64,000 bases of DNA from Thermoanaerobacter wiegelii Rt8.B1 (GTDB lineage: Bacteria > Bacillota > Thermoanaerobacteria > Thermoanaerobacterales > Thermoanaerobacteraceae). The stretch is taken from assembly GCF_000147695.2 (NCBI RefSeq), contig NC_015958.1, forward strand, positions 660,501-724,500. Direction: 5' to 3'. The notes beneath the pieces were generated by a model that saw only the letters and a program-made list of their open reading frames with translations, was not told the DNA's origin and did no database searches. Shown here piece by piece: positions 12,897 to 62,817 of this stretch; position 1 is the first letter of the stretch; each line of letters opens with the position of its first letter. The position numbers and the translations under genes were made by a program.

Positions 12897-13782
12897 GTGC
12901 GCCCGGCATGGGCGATAACTAGGCGGTGAAAGTCCGCTGTGGGCTTGGTAGTGGGAACCACTAGCCAAGAGCAAGGGTGTCCATCGTGAGGTGGAATCTG
13001 AAGGAAGCTTAAGGCAAAATCTCGGTCTGATGAACAAGAACCAGATAAGAGGCTGAATTGGGATGGATGAGTTTGCGTAACAAAACGAAGTCCAACACTA
13101 CCCGAATCCCATACAGTAAATCTGGCAGATATATGAGATGAAAGTTATCGTTCTTACCCGGGGAGGTCTCAAGGATAAGTCATGGAAGTAAAATCTGAAG
13201 TGACAACCCATGCAGTGATGTATGGCTGAACCTTGAGAAGTCAGCAGAGGTCATAGTACTTATCTAGACATGAATAGATAAGGAAGGACCGAACGTTAGG
13301 AGGTTTTGGAAATCTTATGGACTCGAAAGATATGCGAAGACTGCAGACAACTCAACAAAGAGGCTATCCGTTGAATAGAGAAATGGAATTTCAAAAGACA
13401 ACGGAAGTGCATAGTATATCATCGGCGTCGGAAGATGGAAGAAACGAAGTACAAAGATATACCGGCAAGATGCTTGAAATGATAGTAGAACGAGGGAACA
13501 TGGAAGCAGCATACAAGCGCGTTGTTGCAAATAAAGGAAGCCATGGAGTCGATGGGATGGGAGTAGATGAACTTCTACCGTATCTCAAAGAAAACTGGGC
13601 AACCATAAAACAACAACTGCTGGAGGGGAAATACAAACCACAACCAGTGCGAAGAGTAGAAATTCCCAAACCTGATGGAGGAAAAAGACTACTAGGAATA
13701 CCTACAGTACTAGACAGACTAATACAACAAGCAATAGCCCAAATACTAAATAAAGTCTACAACCATACATTTTCTGATAGCA

Positions 13783-17001: not shown

Positions 17002-18054
17002 GATTCAGACCAGGACGCAGTGCAAAAGACGCAATAAAAGCCGCAGAAGCATACATAAATGAAGGATACACATGGGTTGTAGATATGGACTTAGAAAAGT
17101 TCTTTGACAGAGTAAACCACGACATAATAATGTCCAAACTAGAAAAGCGGATAGGAGATAAAAGGGTACTAAAGTTAATACGAAGATACCTAGAATCAGG
17201 AGTAATGATAAACGGAATCAAAGTATCAACAGAAGAAGGGACACCCCAAGGAGGGCCATTAAGTCCCCTATTAGCAAACATAATGTTGGACGAACTAGAC
17301 AAAGAACTTGAGAAACGAGGGCATAAATTCTGCCGATATGCAGATGACTGCAACATATATGTAAAAAGCAGGTCTGCAGGAAACAGAGTAATGAAGAGCA
17401 TAAAGAAATTCATAGAAAGCAAATTAAAACTAAAAGTCAACGAAGCAAAAAGTGCTGTAGATAGACCATGGAGAAGAAAATTTCTTGGATTTTCATTCTA
17501 TACAAAAGAAAACGAAGTAAGAATAAGAATCCATGAAAAATCCATCAAAAGGTTTAAGGAAAAAGTAAGAGAAATAACCAATCGGAACAAGGGAATAAGC
17601 ATGGAAAACAGAATAAAAAGACTAAATCAAATAACAACAGGATGGGTCAACTATTTTGGATTAGCAGACGCGAAAAGCATAATGAAAACCCTTGACGAAT
17701 GGATAAGGCGAAGACTAAGGGCATGTATATGGAAACAATGGAAGAAGATAAAAACGAAGCATGATAACTTAGTAAAACTAGGAGTAGAAGAACAAAAAGC
17801 CTGGGAATACGCCAATACAAGGAAAGGCTACTGGAGAATATCCAATAGCCCAATCCTAAATAAGACTCTTACAAATAAATACTTTGAAAGCATAGGTTAT
17901 AAGAGTTTATCCCAAAGATATCTAATTGTACACAATTCCTAATGAACCGCCGTATACCGAACGGTACGTACGGTGGTGTGAGAGGACGCTGAATAAAATA
18001 ATTATTCAGCTCCTACTCGATTTAAAAAATTTGATGCGTGTGGAGTGATAATAT

Positions 18055-25750: not shown

Positions 25751-27662
25751 GTGCGCCCGGCATGGGCGATAACTAGGCGGTGAAAGTCCGCTGTGGGCTT
25801 GGTAGTGGGAACCACTAGCCAAGAGCAAGGGTGTCCATCGTGAGGTGGAATCTGAAGGAAGCTTAAGGCAAAATCTCGGTCTGATGAACAAGAACCAGAT
25901 AAGAGGCTGAATTGGGATGGATGAGTTTGCGTAACAAAACGAAGTCCAACACTACCCGAATCCCATACAGTAAATCTGGCAGATATATGAGATGAAAGTT
26001 ATCGTTCTTACCCGGGGAGGTCTCAAGGATAAGTCATGGAAGTAAAATCTGAAGTGACAACCCATGCAGTGATGTATGGCTGAACCTTGAGAAGTCAGCA
26101 GAGGTCATAGTACTTATCTAGACATGAATAGATAAGGAAGGACCGAACGTTAGGAGGTTTTGGAAATCTTATGGACTCGAAAGATATGCGAAGACTGCAG
26201 ACAACTCAACAAAGAGGCTATCCGTTGAATAGAGAAATGGAATTTCAAAAGACAACGGAAGTGCATAGTATATCATCGGCGTCGGAAGATGGAAGAAACG
26301 AAGTACAAAGATATACCGGCAAGATGCTTGAAATGATAGTAGAACGAGGGAACATGGAAGCAGCATACAAGCGCGTTGTTGCAAATAAAGGAAGCCATGG
26401 AGTCGATGGGATGGGAGTAGATGAACTTCTACCGTATCTCAAAGAAAACTGGGCAACCATAAAACAACAACTGCTGGAGGGGAAATACAAACCACAACCA
26501 GTGCGAAGAGTAGAAATTCCCAAACCTGATGGAGGAAAAAGACTACTAGGAATACCTACAGTACTAGACAGACTAATACAACAAGCAATAGCCCAAATAC
26601 TAAATAAAGTCTACAACCATACATTTTCTGATAGCAGTTATGGATTCAGACCAGGACGCAGTGCAAAAGACGCAATAAAAGCCGCAGAAGCATACATAAA
26701 TGAAGGATACACATGGGTTGTAGATATGGACTTAGAAAAGTTCTTTGACAGAGTAAACCACGACATAATAATGTCCAAACTAGAAAAGCGGATAGGAGAT
26801 AAAAGGGTACTAAAGTTAATACGAAGATACCTAGAATCAGGAGTAATGATAAACGGAATCAAAGTATCAACAGAAGAAGGGACACCCCAAGGAGGGCCAT
26901 TAAGTCCCCTATTAGCAAACATAATGTTGGACGAACTAGACAAAGAACTTGAGAAACGAGGGCATAAATTCTGCCGATATGCAGATGACTGCAACATATA
27001 TGTAAAAAGCAGGTCTGCAGGAAACAGAGTAATGAAGAGCATAAAGAAATTCATAGAAAGCAAATTAAAACTAAAAGTCAACGAAGCAAAAAGTGCTGTA
27101 GATAGACCATGGAGAAGAAAATTTCTTGGATTTTCATTCTATACAAAAGAAAACGAAGTAAGAATAAGAATCCATGAAAAATCCATCAAAAGGTTTAAGG
27201 AAAAAGTAAGAGAAATAACCAATCGGAACAAGGGAATAAGCATGGAAAACAGAATAAAAAGACTAAATCAAATAACAACAGGATGGGTCAACTATTTTGG
27301 ATTAGCAGACGCGAAAAGCATAATGAAAACCCTTGACGAATGGATAAGGCGAAGACTAAGGGCATGTATATGGAAACAATGGAAGAAGATAAAAACGAAG
27401 CATGATAACTTAGTAAAACTAGGAGTAGAAGAACAAAAAGCCTGGGAATACGCCAATACAAGGAAAGGCTACTGGAGAATATCCAATAGCCCAATCCTAA
27501 ATAAGACTCTTACAAATAAATACTTTGAAAGCATAGGTTATAAGAGTTTATCCCAAAGATATCTAATTGTACACAATTCCTAATGAACCGCCGTATACCG
27601 AACGGTACGTACGGTGGTGTGAGAGGACGCTGAATAAAATAATTATTCAGCTCCTACTCGAT
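25751..27662 (+). mobile_element. Group IIC intron copy 2 (intact)
   Basis: 1912 bp from GTGCG to CTACTCGAT. The 5' ribozyme region is about 410 nt, followed by one maturase ORF and domains V-VI (27585-27662). The domain V strand CCGCCG carries the CGC triad typical of class C. The intron starts immediately past a terminator hairpin, the class C target rule. It is nearly identical to copy 1 outside that copy's transposon, and probably the active source. Confidence 0.95.
26171..27583 (+). CDS. ltrA: Group IIC intron reverse transcriptase/maturase
   Basis: 470 residues. RT domains 0-7 cover about 30-330, with GFRPGRSAKDAI, VVDMDLEKFFDRVNHD, GTPQGGPLSPLLANIMLDELD and the YADD active site (FCRYADDCNIYVK). 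Domain X (about 360-440) has the GIIM-type region LNQITTGWVNYFGLADAK. There is no HNH endonuclease domain, as expected for class C. The protein helps the intron splice and copies it into new terminator sites. A GGAGG lies about 14 nt before the ATG. It is full length, in contrast to the split and deleted genes in copies 1 and 3. Confidence 0.96.
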   Translation: MDSKDMRRLQTTQQRGYPLNREMEFQKTTEVHSISSASEDGRNEVQRYTGKMLEMIVERGNMEAAYKRVVANKGSHGVDGMGVDELLPYLKENWATIKQQLLEGKYKPQPVRRVEIPKPDGGKRLLGIPTVLDRLIQQAIAQILNKVYNHTFSDSSYGFRPGRSAKDAIKAAEAYINEGYTWVVDMDLEKFFDRVNHDIIMSKLEKRIGDKRVLKLIRRYLESGVMINGIKVSTEEGTPQGGPLSPLLANIMLDELDKELEKRGHKFCRYADDCNIYVKSRSAGNRVMKSIKKFIESKLKLKVNEAKSAVDRPWRRKFLGFSFYTKENEVRIRIHEKSIKRFKEKVREITNRNKGISMENRIKRLNQITTGWVNYFGLADAKSIMKTLDEWIRRRLRACIWKQWKKIKTKHDNLVKLGVEEQKAWEYANTRKGYWRISNSPILNKTLTNKYFESIGYKSLSQRYLIVHNS

Positions 27663-31053: not shown

Positions 31054-31082
31054 TTGACTAATATCAAAAAAGTTGATAAGAT
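31054..31082 (+). promoter_or_regulatory. Promoter of permease/pur operon
   Basis: TTGACT (31054-31059), 17 bp and TAAGAT (31077-31082), about 25 bp before the tandem riboswitch. Confidence 0.7.
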
Positions 31083-31099
31083 ATAAGTGGGACAATTGA

Positions 31100-31181
31100 A
31101 TAAAAATCACTCATATAATCTCGAGAATATGGCTCGAGAGTCTCTACCGAACAACCGTAAATTGTTCGACTATGAGTGAAA
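31100..31181 (+). promoter_or_regulatory. Guanine riboswitch (first half of a tandem)
   Basis: P1 is TCACTCAT (31107-31114) with ATGAGTGA (31172-31179). The conserved core ATATAATC, GAATATGGC, GTCTCTACC, ACCGTAAA and GACTATG, with the guanine-specifying C, is present. It has no terminator of its own; the next aptamer follows at once. Confidence 0.92.
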
Positions 31182-31330
31182 GTGTACCTAGGGTTCCAGC
31201 CTATTTATAGGTGTTCGGACCGAGCGGTACAGGTATATGTTTATATACCACACCTTAGGGACAAAAGCCCGGGAGGATAGGTTTCACTCTATGTTTTGCT
31301 AAAGAAATCTATTCTTCCCGGGTTTGTTTG
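31174..31330 (+). promoter_or_regulatory. PRPP riboswitch (ykkC subtype 2b) with terminator
   Basis: The ykkC hallmarks TACCTAGGGTTCC (31185-31197), CGGACCGAG and AGGGACAAAAGCCCGGGAGG (31254-31273) are present. GAGTGAAA (31174-31181) can pair with TTTCACTC (31282-31289) to close the aptamer. CCCGGGAGGATAG (31268-31280) can instead pair with CTATTCTTCCCGGG (31309-31322) followed by TTTGTTTG, a terminator. Its location before purine genes and a guanine aptamer points to PRPP, which would turn expression on. Confidence 0.85.
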
Positions 31331-31377
31331 TTTTAAAGTTTCAAAAAAATGTAAAATACTTAGATAGGAGGATTATA

Positions 31378-32760
31378 ATGGAAAAAGTGAGTAAATTGCA
31401 GCCGAAGACATCTTTTTACGCATTAGCAAATAGGATTTGGAAACTTGAAAATTACAAGACAAATGTAAAAACAGAAATATTAGCAGGTATTACAACCTTT
31501 ATAACAATGGCCTACATTATGTTTGTGAATCCCATTATACTAAAAGAAACAGGAATGGATCCAGGAGCCGTTTTTGTAGCTACTTGTCTTTCAGCGGCCA
31601 TTGGAACTCTCATGATGGCTTTTTACGCTAATTATCCTTTTGCACAAGCTCCAGGTATGGGACTTAACGCTTTCTTTACTTATACTGTCGTTTTAACAAT
31701 GGGATACAGTTGGCAAGAGGCTCTAGCTGCAGTTTTTTTCTCAGGAATTATATTTATTTTGATTACTTTGTCTGGAATACGGGAAATGATTGTTGATGCT
31801 ATACCTATGTCTTTAAAATATGCAGTAAGTGGAGGAATAGGTTTATTTATAGCTTTTATTGGACTTAAAAATGCTGGTATAATCGTGGCAAATCAAGCAA
31901 CTTACATTGGATTTGGCGATTTGACTAATCCTGGGACACTTCTTGCCATTGCGGGACTTTTTATAACAGCGATATTGATGTCAAGAAACGTAAAAGGTTC
32001 AATACTTCTTGGCATATTGATAACTACAGTATTGGGACTTTTTACTGGAATAGCGAAATTACCCTCTGATTTTAGTATAATTAAAATGCCACCAAGTCTT
32101 GCACCCACATTTCTCAAATTGGATATAAAAGGGCTTTTGGGAATTGGCAAGGATATAGGTTTTCTCTCACTTTTCACCAGTATGTTATATGTAGTTTTAT
32201 CTTTTACTTTTGTAGATTTATTCGATACTATTGGTACTTTTATAGGAACAGGTTCAAAAGCTGGAATGTTAGATGAAAACGGCAAAATGCCTAATATGAA
32301 AAAAGGACTTATGTCAGATGCTATTGCCACCACGATAGGCTCTCTTTTAGGAACTTCTACTGTTACTACTTATGTTGAAAGTGCTGCAGGTATTGCAGAA
32401 GGCGGAAGAACAGGTCTTACTGCTTTTGTGACAGGTATTTTGTTTTTAGTGGCACTGTTTTTCTCACCAATAGCTTTGCTGGTGCCTACGCAAGCTACTG
32501 CTCCTGCCCTTATTATTGTTGGTGTATTAATGATGGGCTCCATTAAAAACATAAATTTTGAAGATTTTACAGAAGCTATGCCTGCTTTCCTTGCTATAAT
32601 TGCTATGCCTTTCACCTTTAGCATTGCTAATGGTATTGCTGCAGGGCTTATTGCGTATCCTATTGTAAAAATTGCAGCAGGAAGAGCAAAAGAAATTCAT
32701 CCTATTGTGTACATTCTTGCGTTTTTATTCATATTACGTTTTGCTACACTTGCTGGTTAA
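31378..32760 (+). CDS. NCS2-type purine permease (guanine/hypoxanthine, AzgA/PbuG-like)
   Basis: 460 residues from ATG 31378, chosen for TAGGAGGAT just upstream. About 12-13 TM segments; family motifs are ITTFITMAYIMFVNP (about 35), FAQAPGMGLNAFFTYTVV (about 80-97) and VDLFDTIGTFIGTGSKAGM (about 281). It should import purine bases by proton symport. It lies directly behind the tandem riboswitch and ahead of the purine operon, so salvage and synthesis are regulated together. The exact base is inferred. Confidence 0.9.
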   Translation: MEKVSKLQPKTSFYALANRIWKLENYKTNVKTEILAGITTFITMAYIMFVNPIILKETGMDPGAVFVATCLSAAIGTLMMAFYANYPFAQAPGMGLNAFFTYTVVLTMGYSWQEALAAVFFSGIIFILITLSGIREMIVDAIPMSLKYAVSGGIGLFIAFIGLKNAGIIVANQATYIGFGDLTNPGTLLAIAGLFITAILMSRNVKGSILLGILITTVLGLFTGIAKLPSDFSIIKMPPSLAPTFLKLDIKGLLGIGKDIGFLSLFTSMLYVVLSFTFVDLFDTIGTFIGTGSKAGMLDENGKMPNMKKGLMSDAIATTIGSLLGTSTVTTYVESAAGIAEGGRTGLTAFVTGILFLVALFFSPIALLVPTQATAPALIIVGVLMMGSIKNINFEDFTEAMPAFLAIIAMPFTFSIANGIAAGLIAYPIVKIAAGRAKEIHPIVYILAFLFILRFATLAG

Positions 32761-32834: not shown

Positions 32835-33299
32835 ATGACGCCTAAAGTTGCGATAGTAGTTGGCAGCAAATCTGATTTGCCTGTGGTTGAAAGATGCACA
32901 AAAATTCTTGAAGAATTTGAAATTTCCTATGATGTTAAAGTGCTGTCTGCCCATAGAACTCCCTTTGAGACACAAGAGTTTGCTGTAAATGCAGATAAAT
33001 ATTATGATATAATCATTGCAGGTGCTGGAAAAGCTGCTCATCTGCCTGGTGTTATTGCTTCTTATACACTCTTGCCTGTTATTGGCCTTCCAATAAAGTC
33101 TTCTATTTTAGATGGTCTTGACTCCCTTTTATCAATTGTTCAAATGCCCAAAGGTGTGCCTGTTGCAACAGTAGCCATAGATGGAGCAGAAAATGCAGCA
33201 CTTTTAGCTTGTCATATTCTCTCTTTGAAATATACTTATTTAAAGAAGACCTTAGCTGATTATAGGGAGAAAAAGGCTGAAGAAGTGTTAAACAATTAA
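32835..33299 (+). CDS. purE: N5-carboxyaminoimidazole ribonucleotide mutase, class I PurE
   Basis: 154 residues. The class I features are [46 protein letters not shown] and [22 protein letters not shown]. The enzyme moves the carboxyl group of N5-CAIR to make CAIR. Class I PurE normally works with PurK, but no purK is in the window. Start ATG 32835 has AGGAGGTAT. First gene of the purECSQLFMNHD run. Confidence 0.94.
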
Positions 33300-33318
33300 G
33301 AGATTGGAGGAGATAAAT

Positions 33319-34026
33319 ATGGAAAAAAGAGAATTGCTTTATGAAGGAAAAGCTAAAAAAGTTTATAAGACAGATGAAGAGAATTTTTATATCATCGAAT
33401 ACAAAGATGATGCAACTGCTTTTAATGGTTTAAAGAAAGGCACAATTGCCGAAAAAGGTATAGTAAATAACAAAGTTTCTGCAATTTTATTTGCATTATT
33501 AGAAAAAAATAATGTACCCAACCATTATGTGGAAAAACTTAGTGACAGGGAAATGTTGGTTAAAAAGGTTGAGATTTTCCCTTTAGAAGTTATCGTGAGA
33601 AATTACGCAGCAGGAAGTATTTGTAAAAGATTAGGTCTTGAAGAAGGACTAAAGTTTAAAACGCCTGTATTAGAATTCTCATATAAAAATGACGAATTAG
33701 GAGACCCAATGATTAATGAATATCACATACAAGCTCTCGAATTAGCCACCAAAGAAGAGGTTGAAATTATGACAGGAATGACGTTTAAAGTCAACAAAAT
33801 TTTGTCAGAATATTTTTTATCTAAAGACATTATCTTGGTAGATTTTAAATTAGAATTTGGTAAAAGTAATGAAGGAATATTATTAGCTGATGAAATTTCT
33901 CCTGATACTTGCAGATTTTGGGACAAAAACACTATGGAAAAACTTGATAAAGATAGATTTAGAAAGGATTTGGGCAAAGTAGAAGAAGCATATTTAGAAA
34001 TTTTAAAAAGACTTGGAGGTATGTAA
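33319..34026 (+). CDS. purC: SAICAR synthase
   Basis: 235 residues from ATG 33319 (TTGGAGGAGAT just before it; the longer frame from 33304 runs through that site). Family signatures are [53 protein letters not shown] and [14 protein letters not shown]. It joins aspartate to CAIR using ATP. Closely followed by purS. Confidence 0.96.
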
Positions 34027-34027
34027 A

Positions 34028-34275
34028 GTGCTAATTGCAAAAGTCTATATAACTTTAAAAAAGGAATACTTGACCCTCAAGGAAAAGCAGTAAAGGGAGC
34101 TTTGTACTCATTAGGATACGAAGAAGTAAAAGAGGTGCGGGTTGGGAAATATATAGAATTAACTTTTGAGGATGGCGATTTATCCCTCTTAAAGGACAAA
34201 GTAGATGAGATGTGCAAAAGGATACTGACAAACCCAATTATTGAAGATTACACCTTTGAAATTGTGGAGGGATAA
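34028..34275 (+). pseudogene. purS: PurS subunit of FGAM synthase, frameshifted in an A-run
   Basis: GTG 34028 opens LIAKVYITLKK. The frame then breaks at a run of six A (34057-34062) and would stop about 30 nt later. With one more A it continues as GILDPQGKAVKGALYSLGY, then EVKEVRVGKYIEL and a C-terminal [14 protein letters not shown], giving 82 residues, the normal PurS length. No alternative start exists in the second frame. PurS bridges PurL and PurQ, both intact here, so a dead purS would cause purine auxotrophy. A sequencing undercall or slippage on the A-run is at least as likely as a real mutation. Confidence 0.88.
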
Positions 34276-34277
34276 AG

Positions 34278-34952
34278 ATGAAATTTGCTGTTATAGTTTT
34301 TCCAGGGTCCAATTGCGATGCGGACTGCTATTATGCTGTTAAAGATGGGCTTGGTGAAGAAGTAGAATATGTGTGGCATCAAGAAAAAAATTTGAGTAAG
34401 TACGATGTTATAATGTTACCAGGAGGATTTTCTTATGGTGATTATTTGAGGGCAGGAGCTATTGCTAGGTTTTCGCCTGTCATGGAGGCTGTCAGGGAAG
34501 AAGCAGAAAAAGGAAAATTTATTATAGGCATATGCAACGGATTTCAGATACTTACAGAAGCAGGGCTTTTGCCGGGAGTTTTGAGAAAAAATGAAGGTCT
34601 GAAATTTATTTGCAATACTGTCAGCATAATAGTTGAAAATGACAAAACTCCTTTTACTACAAGGCTTAAAAAAGGGCAGGAGATTTTACTTCCAATTGCT
34701 CATGGAGAAGGCAATTATTATGTAGATGACAAAACTTTAAAAGAACTAAAAGAAAACAATCAAATTGTTTTTAGGTACAAAGAAAATATCAACGGCTCTG
34801 TTGAGAGAATAGCCGGAGTTATAAATAAAAAAGGAAATGTTTTAGGAATGATGCCTCATCCAGAGAGAGCTTATGCCCCCTTGCTGGGTAATACTGACGG
34901 GCTTTATATCTTAGGGTCAATAGTGGATAATTTTGTAAAAGGCGGGGTTTAA
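34278..34952 (+). CDS. purQ: FGAM synthase glutaminase subunit PurQ
   Basis: 224 residues. Triad-type glutamine amidotransferase: [14 protein letters not shown] at the start, nucleophile Cys in [17 protein letters not shown] (about residue 87), and the His/Glu of MMPHPERA near the end. It supplies ammonia to PurL. Start ATG 34278, with GTGGAGGGATAA overlapping the purS end. Confidence 0.96.
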
Positions 34953-34954
34953 GG

Positions 34955-37156
34955 ATGGATAAAATATGGAGAGAATTAGGACTTACTGATGAGGAGTATG
35001 AGAAGATTATTTCGATATTAGGAAGAGAGCCTAATATAACTGAATTAGGTATGTATAGTGTTATGTGGTCTGAACATTGTGCCTATAAAAATTCTAAACC
35101 TCTTTTAAAATATTTACCTACAAAAGGCGAAAGAGTAATACAAGGACCGGGAGAAAATGCAGGAGTATTGGATATTGGAGATAATTTGGCAGTTGTGATG
35201 AAGATAGAAAGCCATAACCACCCTTCTGCAATTGAACCCTATCAAGGAGCAGCTACAGGTGTTGGGGGAATAATAAGAGATATATTCACAATGGGGGCAA
35301 GGCCAATTGCTCTTTTAGATTCTTTAAGATTTGGAATTCCTGATGATAAAAGGACTAAATATCTCATCGAAAACGTGGTAGCAGGTATAGCGGATTATGG
35401 AAATTGCATAGGAATTCCTACAGTGGGTGGGGATACCTATTTTGAAGAAAGTTACAAAGGAAATCCTTTAGTAAATGCGATGTGTGTAGGAATAGTAGAA
35501 AAAGACAAGATAAAAAAAGGGATAGCAAAAGGTGTAGGTAACCCTGTTATGATAGTAGGTGCTACTACGGGGAGAGACGGTATTGGAGGTGCAAGTTTTG
35601 CTTCTCAGGAATTAAGCGAGGAATCAGAAGAAAAAAGACCTTCTGTTCAAGTTGGCGACCCCTTTATGGAAAAACTGCTTTTGGAGGCTTGTTTAGAACT
35701 TTATGAAACAGATGCCGTAGTTGCTATACAAGATATGGGTGCGGCAGGTCTTACCTCTTCTTCTTGCGAGATGGCTTCCCGCGGTGGAACTGGAATGGAG
35801 CTTGACCTTGATAAAGTGCCTTTGAGAGAAGAGGGAATGACACCTTATGAAATAATGCTTTCTGAATCTCAAGAGAGGATGTTGGTTGTAGTAGAGAAAG
35901 GCAAGGAAGAAGATGTACAAAAGGTATTTAAAAAATGGGGACTGAATGCCGCCACAATAGGGAAAATTACTGATGATGGAATGATAAGAGTGATTAAAGA
36001 TGGAAAAGTAGTTGCGGAAGTTCCAGCCAAGTCTTTGACAGAAGATGCTCCACAATATGTGAGAGAAGAAGAAGTACCTAAATGGCAAGAAGATGTCAAT
36101 AAGTTGGATATAAATGAAATAAAACCTCCAGAGGATATGAATAAAGCTCTAAAAGATGTAATTTCTTCTTTAAATATTGCAAGTAAAGAATGGATATACA
36201 GTCAATATGATTATATGGTGAGGACAGACACAGTAATAACTCCGGGAATGGATGCGGCTGTTGTGAGGATAAAAGGTACAAAAAAAGCTGTTGCATTGAC
36301 AACTGATTGCAATGGTAGATATTGTTATTTAGATCCCTATATAGGCTCTCAAATTGCTGTAGCAGAGGCAGCTCGAAATCTTTGTATGGTTGGTGCTAAG
36401 CCTATAGGGGTTACGGATTGTTTGAATTTTGGCAATCCGGAAAAGAAAGAAATATATTGGCAGTTAAAAAATTCTATATTTGGAATAGCTAAAGCCTGTG
36501 AAACACTTCAAATCCCTGTGGTAAGCGGAAATGTCAGTCTTTACAATGAAAATGAGGGAGAGGCCATTTATCCTACTCCTGTAATAGGAATGGCAGGTCT
36601 TATAGAGGATGTATCAAAAATTTGTACAATGGACTTTAAAAAAGAAAGAGATGTAATTATAATTTTAGGTGAGAATAAAGGAGAGATTGGAGGAAGTGAG
36701 TATCTTAAAGTTTGCTTTGGAATGGTAAAAGGGCAACCACCTCAAATAGACTTAGAAGAGGAAAAAAGATTGCAAGAATTGGTGTTAAAACTTATTGATA
36801 AAAGCTTAATTAATTCTTCTCATGACATATCAGAGGGCGGTTTTGCGGCTGCTTTGGTTGAAAGTGCAATTTCAGGCAAAAAAGGTGCAAAAATTTCGCT
36901 ACAAACTTCTCTGAGAGAGGATATAGAGTTGTTCTCTGAATCTCAACCAAGAGCATTAATTGCTGTAAGTCCTGAAAAAGTAGAGGAAGTATTAAAAATA
37001 GCTTATGAACACCAAGTTCCAGCGCAAAAAGTAGGAGTTGTAGAGGGTAAAGATATTGTAATTGATGTAAATGGTAAAAGAATAATAGACCTTCCTTTAG
37101 AAGTCTTAGAGGAAAGCTGGAGAGGGAGAATAAAATGGGAAATGGAGAGAAATTAA
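34955..37156 (+). CDS. purL: FGAM synthase synthetase subunit PurL (small type)
   Basis: 733 residues, the size of the PurS/PurQ-dependent form. Motifs include [57 protein letters not shown] and the second-half [22 protein letters not shown]. It converts FGAR to FGAM with ATP and ammonia from PurQ. The last 22 bp overlap purF. Confidence 0.97.
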
Positions 37157-38532
37157 AAGAGGAATGTGGTGTTTTTGGTGCCTTTAGTTTGTCCACTTCA
37201 GTTACTTCTTATATCTATTATGGCTTACAAGCCTTGCAGCACAGAGGGCAGGAAAGTTCAGGTATAGCTATTTATGATGGCGAAAAAATAAATTGTATTA
37301 AGGGGTTGGGACTTGTCAGCGAGGTCTTTAATAAGGAAAATTTAAAGACATTAGAGGGGAAAATGGGGATAGGCCATGTAAGGTATTCTACTACAGGCAG
37401 CAATAGCATTATAAATGCTCAACCCCTTGTTGGTAATTTTAAAAACAAATATATAGCTCTTGCCCATAATGGCAATTTGATAAACGCAGGAGAGTTAAGA
37501 GACCAATTAGAGAAGGACGGTAGAATATTTCAAACTACAACTGATAGTGAAATAATTCTCCATCTAATTGCAAAAAATTTTCAAGAAAACTTAATCGGAG
37601 CTCTTTTAGAAACAATGAAACAAATAAAAGGTTCATATGCTTTGGTGATTTTAACAGACAATAAATTAATAGGGATAAGAGATGTAAACAGTATAAGGCC
37701 TCTTTGCATAGGTAAAAAAGATGACACTTATTTTTTATCTTCTGAATCTTGTGCCTTTGACGTAATAGGAGCAGAGTTGATACGAGATGTAGAAGCAGGA
37801 GAAATAGTTATAATTGATGGAAAAGGAATAGAGTCTGTTAAGTTAGAAGTAGAAGAAAAAAAGATGCCTTGTGTTTTTGAATACATCTATTTTGCTAGAC
37901 CTGACAGTGTCATAAATGGAAGAAGTGTTTATTTTACACGATTGGAGATGGGCAAAAGATTAGCTGAAGAAGCACCTGTAGATGCAGACTTGGTAGTACC
38001 AGTTCCAGATTCAGGCATTGCTGCTGCAAGAGGTTACTCTCTCAAAACAGGACTACCAATGGGTGAGGGACTTATAAAAAATAAATACATTGGAAGGACT
38101 TTTATTGCTCCCGACCAAAGGGATAGAGAGACAGGTGTGAGGATAAAGCTAAATGTCTTAAAAGAATTGGTTCAAGGCAAGAGGATAGTTTTAATAGATG
38201 ATTCAATTGTTAGAGGTACTACTATGAAGAGATTGGTGAGTTTATTAAAAAATGGGGGAGCAAAAGAGGTTCATGTGAGGATAAGTTCACCTCCTGTTAA
38301 ATATTCCTGCTACTTTGGAATTGATACTCCGACAAAAAAAGAATTGATAGGAGCAAGGATGTCAGTTGAAGAGATGTGCAAATTAATAGGAGCTGACAGC
38401 CTACAGTTTTTAAGTATTGAAGGGCTTATAAAAAGTGTAGGACTTAAATCTATTTGCACAGGTTGCTTTGATGGCAACTATCCTATGTATGTTCCAAAAG
38501 AAGGAAGTAAATATCTTTTTGAGAAAAAATAA
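37135..38532 (+). CDS. purF: Amidophosphoribosyltransferase
   Basis: 465 residues. A 10-residue propeptide precedes catalytic Cys11 ([10 protein letters not shown]), which becomes the N-terminus after self-cleavage. NTN-glutaminase segments are [15 protein letters not shown] and [11 protein letters not shown]. The PRPP site is [12 protein letters not shown] (about 355). Cysteines in [15 protein letters not shown] and [15 protein letters not shown] fit the Fe-S cluster of the Bacillus type. First committed purine step. The start at 37135 has GGAGAGGGAGA upstream and overlaps purL by 22 bp. Confidence 0.97.
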
Positions 38533-38549
38533 AAAGTAGGTGTATAATT

Positions 38550-39560
38550 ATGAATTATAAGGATGCTGGGGTAAATATAGATGAAGGCAATAAACTGGTG
38601 GAAATGATAAAGCCAATAGCTAAGCAAACCTTAAATGAATATGTTTTAGAAGGGATAGGAGGTTTTGCTGGTCTTGTTGAGATAAAAAATTATAAAAATC
38701 CTGTGCTTGTGTCAAGCACTGATGGGGTTGGGACAAAACTTAAAATAGCCTTTATGATGGGAAAACATGATACTATAGGGATAGACCTTGTAGCTATGTG
38801 TGTAAATGACATTATTGTAACTGGGGCTAAGCCTTTATTTTTTCTTGACTATTTTGCTACTGGAAAGTTAAAAAGTGAGGTTGCAGTAGAAGTAATCAAA
38901 GGAATAGCAGAAGGTTGCAAAATAGCCGGGTGTGCTTTGATAGGAGGAGAGACAGCAGAACTTCCAGGTTTTTATAAAGAAGGAGAGTACGATTTAGCAG
39001 GCTTTTGTGTAGGAGTTGCAGAAAAAGAAGAGCTGATTGATACAAAATTAATAAAAGAAGGAGATGCCATAATTGGGCTTGCCTCTTCTGGAATTCACAG
39101 CAATGGCTATTCTTTAGTGAGGAAAGTGTTTTTTGAGAAAAACAATTTTTCAGTAAAAGACTTTATACCAGAGCTTGGGATGGATTTAGGAGATATACTC
39201 CTTACTCCTACAAAAATATATGTCAAGTCAATAGAGGCTTTAAAAGGGTTAAAAATTAAAGGGATGGCTCATATTACTGGGGGAGGTTTTATTGATAATA
39301 TTCCAAGAATACTAAGAAAAAGTATAGATGCAAAAATAAATAAAGGAAGTTGGGAAATTCCAGCTATTTTTGAATTAATTCAAAGATTGGGAGATATTGA
39401 AGAAAGAGAAATGTATCGTACTTTTAATATGGGGATTGGCATGGTAGTTATAGTAGACCCATCTGATGTAGATAAGGCTTTAGAAAAATTAAACGGCATG
39501 GGTGAAAAAGCTTATGTAATAGGGGAGATAGTAGAAGGCGAAGGCGGTGTAATTTTATGA
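38550..39560 (+). CDS. purM: AIR synthase (phosphoribosylformylglycinamidine cyclo-ligase)
   Basis: 336 residues. Signatures are YKDAGVNIDEGNKLVEMIKP, SSTDGVGTKLKIA, LVAMCVNDIIVTGAKPLFFLDY, ALIGGETAELPGFY and MAHITGGGFIDNIPRIL. It closes FGAM to AIR with ATP. purN starts 4 bp before its end (ATGA overlap). Confidence 0.97.
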   Translation: MNYKDAGVNIDEGNKLVEMIKPIAKQTLNEYVLEGIGGFAGLVEIKNYKNPVLVSSTDGVGTKLKIAFMMGKHDTIGIDLVAMCVNDIIVTGAKPLFFLDYFATGKLKSEVAVEVIKGIAEGCKIAGCALIGGETAELPGFYKEGEYDLAGFCVGVAEKEELIDTKLIKEGDAIIGLASSGIHSNGYSLVRKVFFEKNNFSVKDFIPELGMDLGDILLTPTKIYVKSIEALKGLKIKGMAHITGGGFIDNIPRILRKSIDAKINKGSWEIPAIFELIQRLGDIEEREMYRTFNMGIGMVVIVDPSDVDKALEKLNGMGEKAYVIGEIVEGEGGVIL

Positions 39561-40171
39561 ACCTTGTGGTGATGGCATCAGGTAACGGGACTGATTTGCA
39601 GTCAATAATTGATGCCATTGAAGCAGGATATATCAATGCCAGGATAATTGCCGTCATTAGCGATAAAAAAGGAGCTTATGCTCTTGAAAGGGCAAAAAAA
39701 CACGGAATTGCTACTTACTGCCTTCCCAAAAAAGAATTGAAAGAAAATTTTCAAAGAGAGTTATTAAAGCTTCTTGAAAAATTGAATCCGGATGGAATAA
39801 TTCTTGCAGGGTTTTTGACAATTCTCAGTGGAGAAATTGTAGAAAGATTTGAAAACAAGATAATAAATATACATCCCTCACTTATTCCTGCCTTTTGTGG
39901 CAAAGGATTTTATGGAATGAAGGTACATCAGGCGGTCTATGAATACGGAGTAAAATACACCGGCTGTACCGTTCACTTTGTGGACAGTGGTGCTGATACT
40001 GGACCTATTATTTTTCAAGAAGTTGTGAAAATCGATGAAGAGGATATGCCAGAGACCATTGCTAAAAAAGTGCTGGAAGTAGAACACAAAGTTTTACCTT
40101 ATGCAGTTAAGCTTTTTACAGAAGGGAAGTTAAAAATCGAAGGTAGAAAAGTGAAAATATTAGAGTTTTAA
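39557..40171 (+). CDS. purN: GAR transformylase (folate-dependent)
   Basis: 204 residues. MNLVVMASGNGTDLQSIIDA is the phosphate-loop start. NIHPSLIPAFCGKGFYGMKV carries the catalytic Asn/His pair, and VHFVDSGADTGPIIFQE carries the Asp. It uses 10-formyl-THF. Start overlaps purM by 4 bp. Confidence 0.96.
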   Translation: MNLVVMASGNGTDLQSIIDAIEAGYINARIIAVISDKKGAYALERAKKHGIATYCLPKKELKENFQRELLKLLEKLNPDGIILAGFLTILSGEIVERFENKIINIHPSLIPAFCGKGFYGMKVHQAVYEYGVKYTGCTVHFVDSGADTGPIIFQEVVKIDEEDMPETIAKKVLEVEHKVLPYAVKLFTEGKLKIEGRKVKILEF

Positions 40172-40206
40172 AAGGGATTATAAAACTGTAAAAAGGAGGC
40201 AATTCT

Positions 40207-41733
40207 ATGGCCAAAAAAGCGTTAATAAGCGTTTCAAAAAAAGAAGGCATAGTGGAATTTGCCAAAAAGCTTAATGAATTAGGATATGAAATAATATCAA
40301 CAGGTGGGACTTATAATCTTCTTAAAGAAAATAGAGTAAATGTAGTAAAGGTATCAGAGATAACAGGTTTCCCTGAAATTATGGATGGTAGAGTAAAGAC
40401 GCTTCATCCTAAAATTCATGGAGGGCTTCTTGCAATAAGAGACAATGAAGAGCACATTAAAGCTTTAAAAGAACATGGCATTGAGCCAATAGATATAGTT
40501 GTCATAAATTTATATCCTTTTAAAGAGACAATCCTAAAAGAAAATGTGACTTTAGAAGAAGCGATAGAAAATATAGACATTGGCGGACCTTCAATGATAA
40601 GGGCTGCAGCTAAAAACTACAAATATGTGACTATTCTTGTAGATCCAAAGGATTATGATACAGTCATTGAAGAAATAAAACAATATGGCAATACAAAAGA
40701 AGAGACGAGATTTTATCTGGCAGCAAAAGCTTTTGGTCATACAGCCCTTTACGATTCTTTGATATACAACTATTTGATACAAAAAAATAACATAGAGTTT
40801 CCCGAAGTTATGGCCTTTGCCTATGAAAAAGCTCAAGACATGAGATATGGTGAAAATCCTCATCAAAAGGCGGCTTTTTACAAAAATCCTATTAAAGCCT
40901 ATGGTATTGCAGAATGTGAGCAGTTGCACGGCAAAGAGCTCTCTTTTAACAATATAAACGATGCAAATGCGGCAATAGAGCTCTTAAGAGAGTTTAAAGA
41001 GCCTGCAGCAGTTGCCGTAAAGCACACAAATCCTTGTGGAGTAGCTATTGCAGATAATATATACAATGCTTACTTAAAAGCTTATGAGAGTGACCCTGTT
41101 TCTATTTTTGGGGGAATTGTAGCATTAAATAGAACTGTAGATGTTAAAACAGCTGAAGAACTTATAAAAATATTCTTAGAAATAGTAATTGCTCCAGACT
41201 TTGAAGAAGAGGCCTTAGAGATTTTAAAGAAAAAGAAAAACTTAAGGATATTGAGGTTAAAAGAAGGATATGAAAAAGAATATGATTTAAAGAAAGTAGA
41301 AGGCGGACTTTTAGTACAAGAAAAAGATGAAATAGATTTAGATGAGAATAATTTGAAAGTAGTTACTAAAAAAGCACCTACTCAAAAAGAGATGGAAGAT
41401 TTAAGGTTTGCCTGGAAGGTAGTAAAGCACGTAAAATCCAATGCGATTGTTTTAGCAAAAGATGGAGCTACAGTAGGTATTGGCGTGGGACAAGTCAACA
41501 GGATATGGCCGACAGAACAAGCAATCAAACAAGCAGGCGAAAAAGCAAAGGGAAGTGTCCTTGCATCAGATGCCTTTTTCCCATTTCCAGATGTTGCGGA
41601 AGCGGCTGTAAAAGGCGGTATAACTGCCATAATCCAACCAGGCGGCTCACAAAACGATGCTTTATCAATTGAAGCTGCAGACAAAGGCGGTATATCAATG
41701 ATATTCACTGGCATAAGGCACTTTAAACATTGA
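40207..41733 (+). CDS. purH: AICAR transformylase / IMP cyclohydrolase
   Basis: 508 residues. The MGS-like cyclohydrolase domain (1-190) has [31 protein letters not shown] and [16 protein letters not shown]. The transformylase domain has [10 protein letters not shown] (about 275-284) and, near the end, DAFFPFPD ... [11 protein letters not shown]. It performs the last two steps to IMP. AAAAAGGAGGC precedes the ATG. Confidence 0.97.
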
Positions 41734-41745
41734 GGAGGAATTTGT

Positions 41746-43005
41746 ATGAAGGTTTTAGTCATAGGGGGCGGAGGAAGAGAACATGCAATTGTTCACAAAC
41801 TTTCACAAAGTCCCAAAGTGGATAAAATCTACTGTGCTCCCGGAAATGCTGGCATAGGTCTTTTGGCAGAATGTGTTGACATAAAAGTTGGAGATATTGA
41901 AAAGCTTAAAGAATTTGCCATAAAAAATAACATTGATTTAACAGTGGTAGGGCCAGAGATGCCACTGGTACAAGGTATTGTGGATGAATTTGAGAAAGTA
42001 GGGCTTAAAATCTTTGGGCCTAATAAAAGTGCTGCGGCTATTGAGGGAAGCAAATATTTTACTAAACAGCTTCTTTCTAAATACAATATTCTTACTGGAA
42101 GGTTTAAAGCCTTTGACAAATATCAGGAGGCTTTGAAGTTTTTAAAAGAGACATGGTATCCTGCTGTGATGAAAGCAGATGGACTGGCACAAGGTAAAGG
42201 AGTGTTTATTGTAAAAGACTTTATAGAAGCAAAAGAAGCTCTAGACTTAATGATGAAAAAAAGGATATTTGGTGCATCAGGAGATATCATAATAATAGAA
42301 GAGATGCTTTTTGGAAAAGAAGCGTCAGTATTCGCATTTACAGATGGAGAAAATATTTTACCTATGGTTTCTGCTATGGATTATAAAAAGATCTATGAAG
42401 GAGACAAAGGTCCTAACACTGGAGGTATGGGAAGCATTGCACCAAATCCTTATCTTGAGGAAGAAACTTTAAAAGAAGTGATGGAAAGCATTTTAAAACC
42501 AATGGTAAAGGCACTTCAAAAAGAAGGCATTGTATATAAAGGAGTGTTATACGCAGGTTTAATGCTTACAAAAGAAGGACCTAAGGTTTTAGAATTTAAT
42601 GCAAGATTTGGAGACCCTGAAACACAAGTTGTACTGCCTCTTTTAAAAACAGACCTTATTGATATAATGGAAGCTACCATAGAAGGAAAACTTGATAAAA
42701 TACAAATTGAATGGGAAGACAAAAAGGCTGCATGTGCCGTTGCGGTATCAAACGGTTACCCAGGGGAATATCAGACTGGTTTTGAGATAACAGGGTTAGA
42801 AAAAGTAAAAGAAGCATTTGTATATCATGCAGGGACGGTATTAAAAGATGGTAAAATTGTCACATCAGGAGGAAGAGTGCTTGCTGTTACCTCAATAGGG
42901 GATTCATATGAAGAAGCGAGAGAAAAAGTTTATAGAGAAATTAAAAAAATAAGCTTTAAAGGGATGTACTATAGAAAAGATATTGCTTTGGTAAGCCAGG
43001 TGTAA
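41746..43005 (+). CDS. purD: GAR synthetase
   Basis: 419 residues. The ATP-grasp enzyme opens with MKVLVIGGGGREHAIVHKL. VKADGLAQGKGVFIV is the nucleotide site, and GPNTGGMGSIAPNP and LEFNARFGDPETQVVLPLL are family signatures. It joins glycine to phosphoribosylamine. Last gene of the purine run; its stop codon lies in the loop of the terminator. Confidence 0.97.
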   Translation: MKVLVIGGGGREHAIVHKLSQSPKVDKIYCAPGNAGIGLLAECVDIKVGDIEKLKEFAIKNNIDLTVVGPEMPLVQGIVDEFEKVGLKIFGPNKSAAAIEGSKYFTKQLLSKYNILTGRFKAFDKYQEALKFLKETWYPAVMKADGLAQGKGVFIVKDFIEAKEALDLMMKKRIFGASGDIIIIEEMLFGKEASVFAFTDGENILPMVSAMDYKKIYEGDKGPNTGGMGSIAPNPYLEEETLKEVMESILKPMVKALQKEGIVYKGVLYAGLMLTKEGPKVLEFNARFGDPETQVVLPLLKTDLIDIMEATIEGKLDKIQIEWEDKKAACAVAVSNGYPGEYQTGFEITGLEKVKEAFVYHAGTVLKDGKIVTSGGRVLAVTSIGDSYEEAREKVYREIKKISFKGMYYRKDIALVSQV

Positions 43006-62159: not shown

Positions 62160-62817
62160 GTGCGCCCGGCATGGGCGATAGCTAGGCGGTGAAAGTCCGC
62201 TGTGGGCTTGGTAGTGGGAACCACTAGCCGAGAGCAAGGGTGTCCATCGTGAGGTGGAATCTGAAGGAAGCTTAAGGCAAAATCTCGGTCTGATGAACAA
62301 GAACCAGATAAGAGGCTGAATTGGGATGGATGAGTTTGCACATCAAAACAAAGTCCAACACTACCCGAATCCCATACAGTAAATCTGGCAGATATATGAG
62401 ATGAAAGCTATTGTTCTTACCCAGGGAGGTCTCAAGGATAAGTCATGGAAGTAAAATATGAAGTGACAACCCATACAGTGATGTATGGCTGAACCTTGAG
62501 AAGTCAGCAGAGGTCATAGTACTTATCTAGACATGAATAGATAAGGAAGGACTGAACATTAGGAGGTTTCGGAAATCTTATGAACTCGAGAGATATGCGA
62601 AGACTGCAGACAACTCAACAAAGAGGCTATCCGTTGGATAGAGAAAGGGAATTTCAAAAGACAACGGAAGTGCATAGTATATCATCGGCGTCAAGGGATG
62701 GAAGAAACGATGTACTAAGAATTGTACATAATTCCTAATGAACCGCCGTATACCGAACGGTACGTACGGTGGTGTGAGAGGACGCTGAATAAAATAATTA
62801 TTCAGCTCCTACTCGAT
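62160..62817 (+). mobile_element. Group IIC intron copy 3, maturase deleted
   Basis: 658 bp with the same GTGCG start and CTACTCGAT end and scattered substitutions compared with copies 1 and 2. The maturase ORF start (ATG 62580) is kept for about 45 codons. About 1254 bp are then missing, with GTAC shared at both deletion edges. The ribozyme ends and domains V-VI remain, so it could still splice or move with help from the copy 2 maturase. Confidence 0.93.

Follow-up and report, generated by a model that had tools for sequence, protein, structure and literature searches.

Gene order and genome setting

The genome of Thermoanaerobacter wiegelii Rt8.B1 is a single contig of 2,785,056 bases, in which the element described here lies between guaA and a purine permease gene (Table 1; positions are those of the window, i.e., the whole stretch of 64,000 nucleotides that was analyzed). 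The permease gene is followed by a run of purine synthesis genes from purE to purD, in which purC and purQ are separated by a short open frame, probably purS, judging by position only. The promoter candidate ahead of the element is weak, since one such match was found where 1.6 were expected in shuffled sequences. In a genome-wide search, the tandem element was the only PRPP-type element returned, and its guanine aptamer and the guaB switch were the only purine switches. The window also holds several near-identical group II intron copies (12980-13289, 17945-18021, 25834-27662, and 62243-62817); the copy at 25834-27662 has a maturase gene and stops some 90 bases short of the guaB guanine riboswitch.

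Table 1. Features of the tandem element and its surroundings, in window coordinates
Feature	Position	Strand	Basis or remark
Single guanine switch of guaB-guaA	27754-27855		Rfam; upstream of the tandem element
guaA	29467-31005		Upstream of the 5' leader of the tandem element
Candidate sigma-70-type promoter, TTGACT-17-TAAGAT	31054..31082	+	Pattern match
Guanine aptamer	31107..31179	+	RF00167 and fold
Guanine aptamer P1, UCACUCAU/AUGAGUGA	31107-31115/31171-31179		9 bp in MFE fold
Guanine aptamer P2	31119-31125/31133-31139		Fold
Guanine aptamer P3	31148-31154/31162-31168		Fold
Shared strand, GAGTGAAA	31174..31181	+	31174-31179, P1 3' strand; 31174-31181, P0 5' strand
PRPP (ykkC 2b) aptamer core, inner P0 to inner P0	31178..31285	+	RF00442, model R1, PRPP-site residues
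G96 equivalent, PRPP versus ppGpp specificity base	31272..31272	+	Rule from PMC6031431
P0 3' strand, TTTCACTC	31282..31289	+	Sequence and fold
Intrinsic terminator	31258..31334	+	Fold; 5' arm 31258-31285, loop 31286-31303, 3' arm 31304-31334
Purine permease gene, Xan_ur_permease family	31378..32760	+	PF00860, E 3.7e-50; first gene of the putatively controlled cluster
purE, purC, purQ, purL, purF, purM, purN, purH, purD	32835..43005	+	NCBIfam

The element combines a guanine aptamer with a PRPP aptamer

The preliminary description had proposed a guanine aptamer, followed without a gap by a ykkC subtype 2b aptamer and a single terminator, and both the Rfam matches and the fold bear out this architecture. 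The folding energy of the 241-nt element is -86 kcal/mol, compared with -55.6 +/- 4.75 kcal/mol for shuffled sequences (z = -6.4). The first domain matches the Rfam Purine family (RF00167) at 31091-31192 with 99.7 bits (E 1.8e-17; gathering score 37) and has the three-way junction with the conserved loops and core of that family. Its J3/1 segment at the P3/P1 junction reads GACTA, with a C at the ligand-pairing position that points to guanine rather than adenine, so that guanine as the ligand of the first aptamer is supported by the sequence.

The second domain matches ykkC/Guanidine-I (RF00442) at 31177-31277 with 68.9 bits against a gathering score of 63; a separate PRPP family was not among the families returned by the Rfam search of the element. 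Our own search model, R1, gives E 4.6e-27 for the element, a match that is not independent because the window is among the training sequences of R1. Numbering was transferred from the T. mathranii crystal structure (window position = 31176 + n), and all 12 of the PRPP-site residues checked (A5, G6, G48, C49, C75, A76, C77, G96, A101, A103, G104, and G105) match T. mathranii. A G at position 96 distinguishes PRPP aptamers from ppGpp aptamers, and ykkC subtype 2 is told apart from guanidine-I by a pyrimidine at position 49, here C at 31225 (PMC6031431). Since all these residues, including G96, are present, the PRPP call holds at the level of sequence. That the domain instead senses ppGpp, guanidine, or another ligand, as its Guanidine-I label in Rfam might suggest, is extremely improbable given C49, G96, the other PRPP-site residues, and a gene context of purine synthesis; the residues rule out ppGpp and guanidine as candidates. 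As such, the sequence supports PRPP as the ligand, and the ligand assignment put forward in the preliminary description is upheld.

One strand can pair in both aptamers

GAGTGA and its putative partner TTTCACTC were found exactly where the preliminary description had placed them (Table 1), and the strand pairs in two ways, either with the 5' strand of guanine P1 or, together with AA at 31180-31181, with TTTCACTC as an 8-bp closing helix of the PRPP aptamer, P0. All eight pairs of GAGTGAAA/TTTCACTC are Watson-Crick, P1 has 8-9 bp, and a derivation of P0 from the two ends of the aptamer gives GAGUGAAA/UUUCACUC, likewise with eight Watson-Crick pairs. The six letters of the P1 5' strand at 31107-31112 recur unchanged at 31284-31289 (TCACTC), and the isolated duplex energies of P1 and P0 are close (-9.3 and -8.5 kcal/mol).

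The terminator overlaps the same region. Its 5' arm takes in the 3' part of the PRPP aptamer, the inner P0 strand, and the PRPP-site residues at 31277-31281, and its 3' arm ends in a U-rich tract; adjacent aptamers with one terminator overlapping the PRPP aptamer are the arrangement of the tandem IMPLY gate. In terms of secondary structure only, the complete terminator is about 20 kcal/mol more stable than the P0 state. Therefore, going by these equilibrium energies, the decision would have to be made before about 31314-31318 is transcribed.

Strand sharing recurs across tandem loci

A DNA pattern combining the guanine core with the ykkC start matched at least 120 loci, and the loci surveyed are a sample. 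Twenty-one pattern loci were left out because no ykkC 3' motif could be detected in the stretch searched; these are guanine switches standing alone, with GGTTCC present by chance, or ykkC domains that are cut off or interrupted. Five further loci were removed by eye. Together with relatives and model-derived loci, the tandem set comprises at least 97 distinct loci, at least 94 of which are evaluable, i.e., have at least 3 contiguous P1 pairs; three are too poor in such pairs, two of them from Ktedonobacterales. The evaluable loci are mostly from Bacillota, with a few from Chloroflexota. Among the matches listed, the named organisms with the most closely related elements are Thermoanaerobacter and Caldanaerobacter, and the T. 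wiegelii element is 94% identical to that of T. thermocopriae (L056/L123). Caldanaerobacter subterraneus carries two tandem guanine-PRPP elements in one genome (L126/L103 and L131/L097). In a plasmid search, guanine-aptamer matches were partial only.

Strand sharing was found in all evaluable distinct tandem loci among the matches listed (94/94), with at least 2 and typically 5 bases shared. For the 54 distinct standard loci among those matches, P1 pairing at s1-s5 is 98, 100, 98, 96, and 76%, and P0 pairing is 93, 100, 94, and 70% at s2-s5 and 100% at s6-s9, where the P0 residues adjoin A5/G6 of the PRPP site. P1 pairing at s6-s9 is 28-48%, about the level of an unconstrained position. Since s6-s9 thus lie outside the conserved P1 in most lineages, the universal conflict concerns the outer P0 pairs, and by sequence the strand common to all lineages is s2-s5 (31174-31177 in T. 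wiegelii); 31178-31179 are shared as well in T. wiegelii because its P1 is long. With the exclusion resting on the outer P0 pairs, a partial state in which both ligands are bound is conceivable.

To quantify the match between strands, we swapped 3' strands among 51 distinct variants. Observed pairing was 211, compared with a null of 194.1 +/- 3.8 and a maximum of 207 over 2000 swaps, and the likeness of the P0 3' strand to its own P1 5' strand was 171, compared with 149.9 +/- 4.4 (maximum 168); both comparisons include shared ancestry. Recurrence and the swap tests, neither of them corrected for ancestry, rule out chance pairing of GAGTGA.

The recurrence also bears on a different account, put forward by Sherlock et al. 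(PMC5912903), in which steric crowding is the main interference between the aptamers and the overlap of strands is incidental. With P1 conserved at s1-s5 and the inner P0 at s6-s9, the two helices lie side by side and could be drawn as compatible, and the outer P0 of singlet PRPP aptamers is often GAG/GGG too. However, the outer P0 and P1 pairs vary together: GTG faces CAC in both partners (GUG/CAC in the RNA) in L022, L150, L170, and L205, with a G-T pair in P1 of L094, and GAGA faces TCTC (UCUC) in L155. The GTG set may reflect one or two events only. The P0 variant GAAT with ATTC in L018 (GAAU/AUUC) likewise counts against an incidental overlap, and at all loci evaluated, P1 alone is computed to be more stable than the combined partial state. 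We therefore consider crowding as the main interference very unlikely. The direct competition of guanine P1 with P0 that the preliminary description had proposed is backed by the overlapping pairings and by their recurrence across loci.

Other loci depart from the standard arrangement. In L153, L191, L166, and L235, the PRPP aptamer follows a purine-type aptamer with GGCTA in place of GACTA at J3/1, some with an extra base, and possibly of altered specificity or inactive. PRPP aptamers with no Rfam purine match where tested (L137, L169, L140, L149, L158, L198, and L202) are directly preceded by a short related stem and by ACGAGGG or TGAGGG, which may be what is left of guanine aptamers that eroded while the shared strand was kept. 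Singlet and tandem labels come from a strict guanine-core pattern, and at least 9 "single" loci carry an Rfam purine aptamer; consequently, the singlet set is contaminated, and we give no singlet-versus-tandem statistic.

Proposed mechanism

Altogether, the element is very probably a tandem guanine-PRPP riboswitch with one expression platform, which controls purine synthesis and the permease through competition of P1 and P0 for a strand. Sequence and comparison show both aptamers, the overlapping helices, the overlap of terminator and P0, and the recurrence with correlated changes. We infer the following order of strand displacement. The guanine aptamer would fold first during transcription, and guanine would lock P1. 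As TTTCACTC emerges, it would start pairing at the unpaired AA and displace the P1 5' strand to form P0 with GAGTGAAA. The PRPP site, with A5/G6 and G104/G105, would lie beside P0, such that PRPP stabilizes the P0 state; P0 and the PRPP pocket would then keep 31258-31285 from the terminator, and transcription would continue. With P1 held by guanine, P0 would be weak, the terminator would form, and transcription would stop. Ligand binding and IMPLY output have been published for relatives (PMC6031431, PMC5912903), and we found no experiment on this RNA in the literature.

Gate logic

The preliminary description had the gate ON solely when PRPP is high and guanine is low. This rule conflicts with the output measured for B. 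megaterium codA, where guanine alone terminates, PRPP overrides guanine, and the behavior is IMPLY-like, i.e., OFF in the single case of high guanine and low PRPP (PMC5912903); the two rules differ in 2 of the 4 ligand states. For the T. wiegelii element, the putative truth table was approached through computed energies.

Before the terminator is complete, the energy of the P0-formed minus the P1-formed state comes to +2.0 to +2.8 kcal/mol at 37 C; at 70 C, it is +1.0 to +1.7 kcal/mol. These calculations leave out tertiary contacts, and the choice of 3' end moves the values by 1-3 kcal/mol. The corresponding difference for L106 ranges from +2.3 to -1.5 kcal/mol, depending on the 3' end used, and the median over 94 loci is -0.15 kcal/mol (IQR -1.7 to 1.3), with the two states computed at nearly the same energy. 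In a simple two-state model, saturating ligands were assumed to contribute 4.7 kcal/mol for guanine and 3.8 kcal/mol for PRPP, values based on background knowledge and on the published Kd of PRPP; the P0 fractions predicted for T. wiegelii are 0.04 with no ligand, 0.95 with PRPP, 0.00 with guanine, and 0.01 with both. In this model, a difference of +2.0 yields AND-NOT-like fractions and one of -0.9 yields IMPLY-like fractions.

AND-NOT-like behavior of the T. wiegelii element is therefore possible on modeling grounds. Since the uncertainty of the energies is as large as the difference, the assignment to AND-NOT or IMPLY is offered as a hypothesis only. A gate of the same anatomy that requires high PRPP and low guanine to be ON, P1 beating P0 unless PRPP is bound, would agree with energies that favor P1 at both temperatures and with fractions in which P0 is high with PRPP alone. 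Nevertheless, we regard it as somewhat unlikely, given that the measured relative, B. megaterium, is IMPLY, that the model contains neither apo tertiary stabilization nor kinetics, and that the sign flips with the 3' end for L106.

Relation to known systems

The preliminary description had implied that the P1/P0 mechanism was new, but the same exclusion was published in 2018: for the tandem element of T. mathranii, P1 and P0 were predicted to be mutually exclusive, with PRPP binding disrupting P1 (Knappenberger et al. 2018, PMC6031431, eLife 7:e36381). That switch (NC_014209.1 657606-657841; PDB 6CK5) is from the same genus, and its numbering fits the T. wiegelii element at every PRPP-site residue checked; hence, the mechanism is already known. 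We found no logic assay of either element in the literature.

In the order and spacing of its parts and in having one terminator, the B. megaterium codA tandem switch resembles the T. wiegelii element (Sherlock et al. 2018, PMC5912903). In B. megaterium, the 5' end of the PRPP aptamer is cleaved more with guanine and less with PRPP; the authors left the two-input mechanism open, proposing alternative pairing or steric clash (PMC5912903), and a 2022 review still held the structural changes in the tandem switch not to be established. It is for B. megaterium that IMPLY logic was measured. Priestia aryabhattai is a close relative of B. megaterium. Its locus, L106, shows strand sharing too, with P1 CTCA/TGAG and P0 GAGTAAAAA/TTTTTGCTC; compared with T. 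wiegelii, its P1 is shorter, and its P0 is longer and A/U-rich. Singlet PRPP riboswitches of the H. modesticaldum purB type share the PRPP core, the inner P0 GAAAG/GGTTTC, and the overlapping terminator but, unlike T. wiegelii, have no guanine aptamer, and their outer P0 is freer, e.g., CAGG/CCTG (L143) and ATTGCTT/AAGCAAT (L164).

What we add is small, namely, the survey of about a hundred bacterial loci and the refinement to s2-s5; no later paper with such a survey was found in the literature outside subscription journals. The shared strand is kept across distant lineages while both helices change, which argues for the alternative pairing of Knappenberger et al. A single anatomy might also be tuned by lineage, a stronger P1, as in T. 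wiegelii, giving PRPP-AND-NOT-guanine and a stronger P0 giving IMPLY, although we think this rather unlikely. If the P1/P0 balance does differ by lineage, the natural switches would form a graded series of gates.
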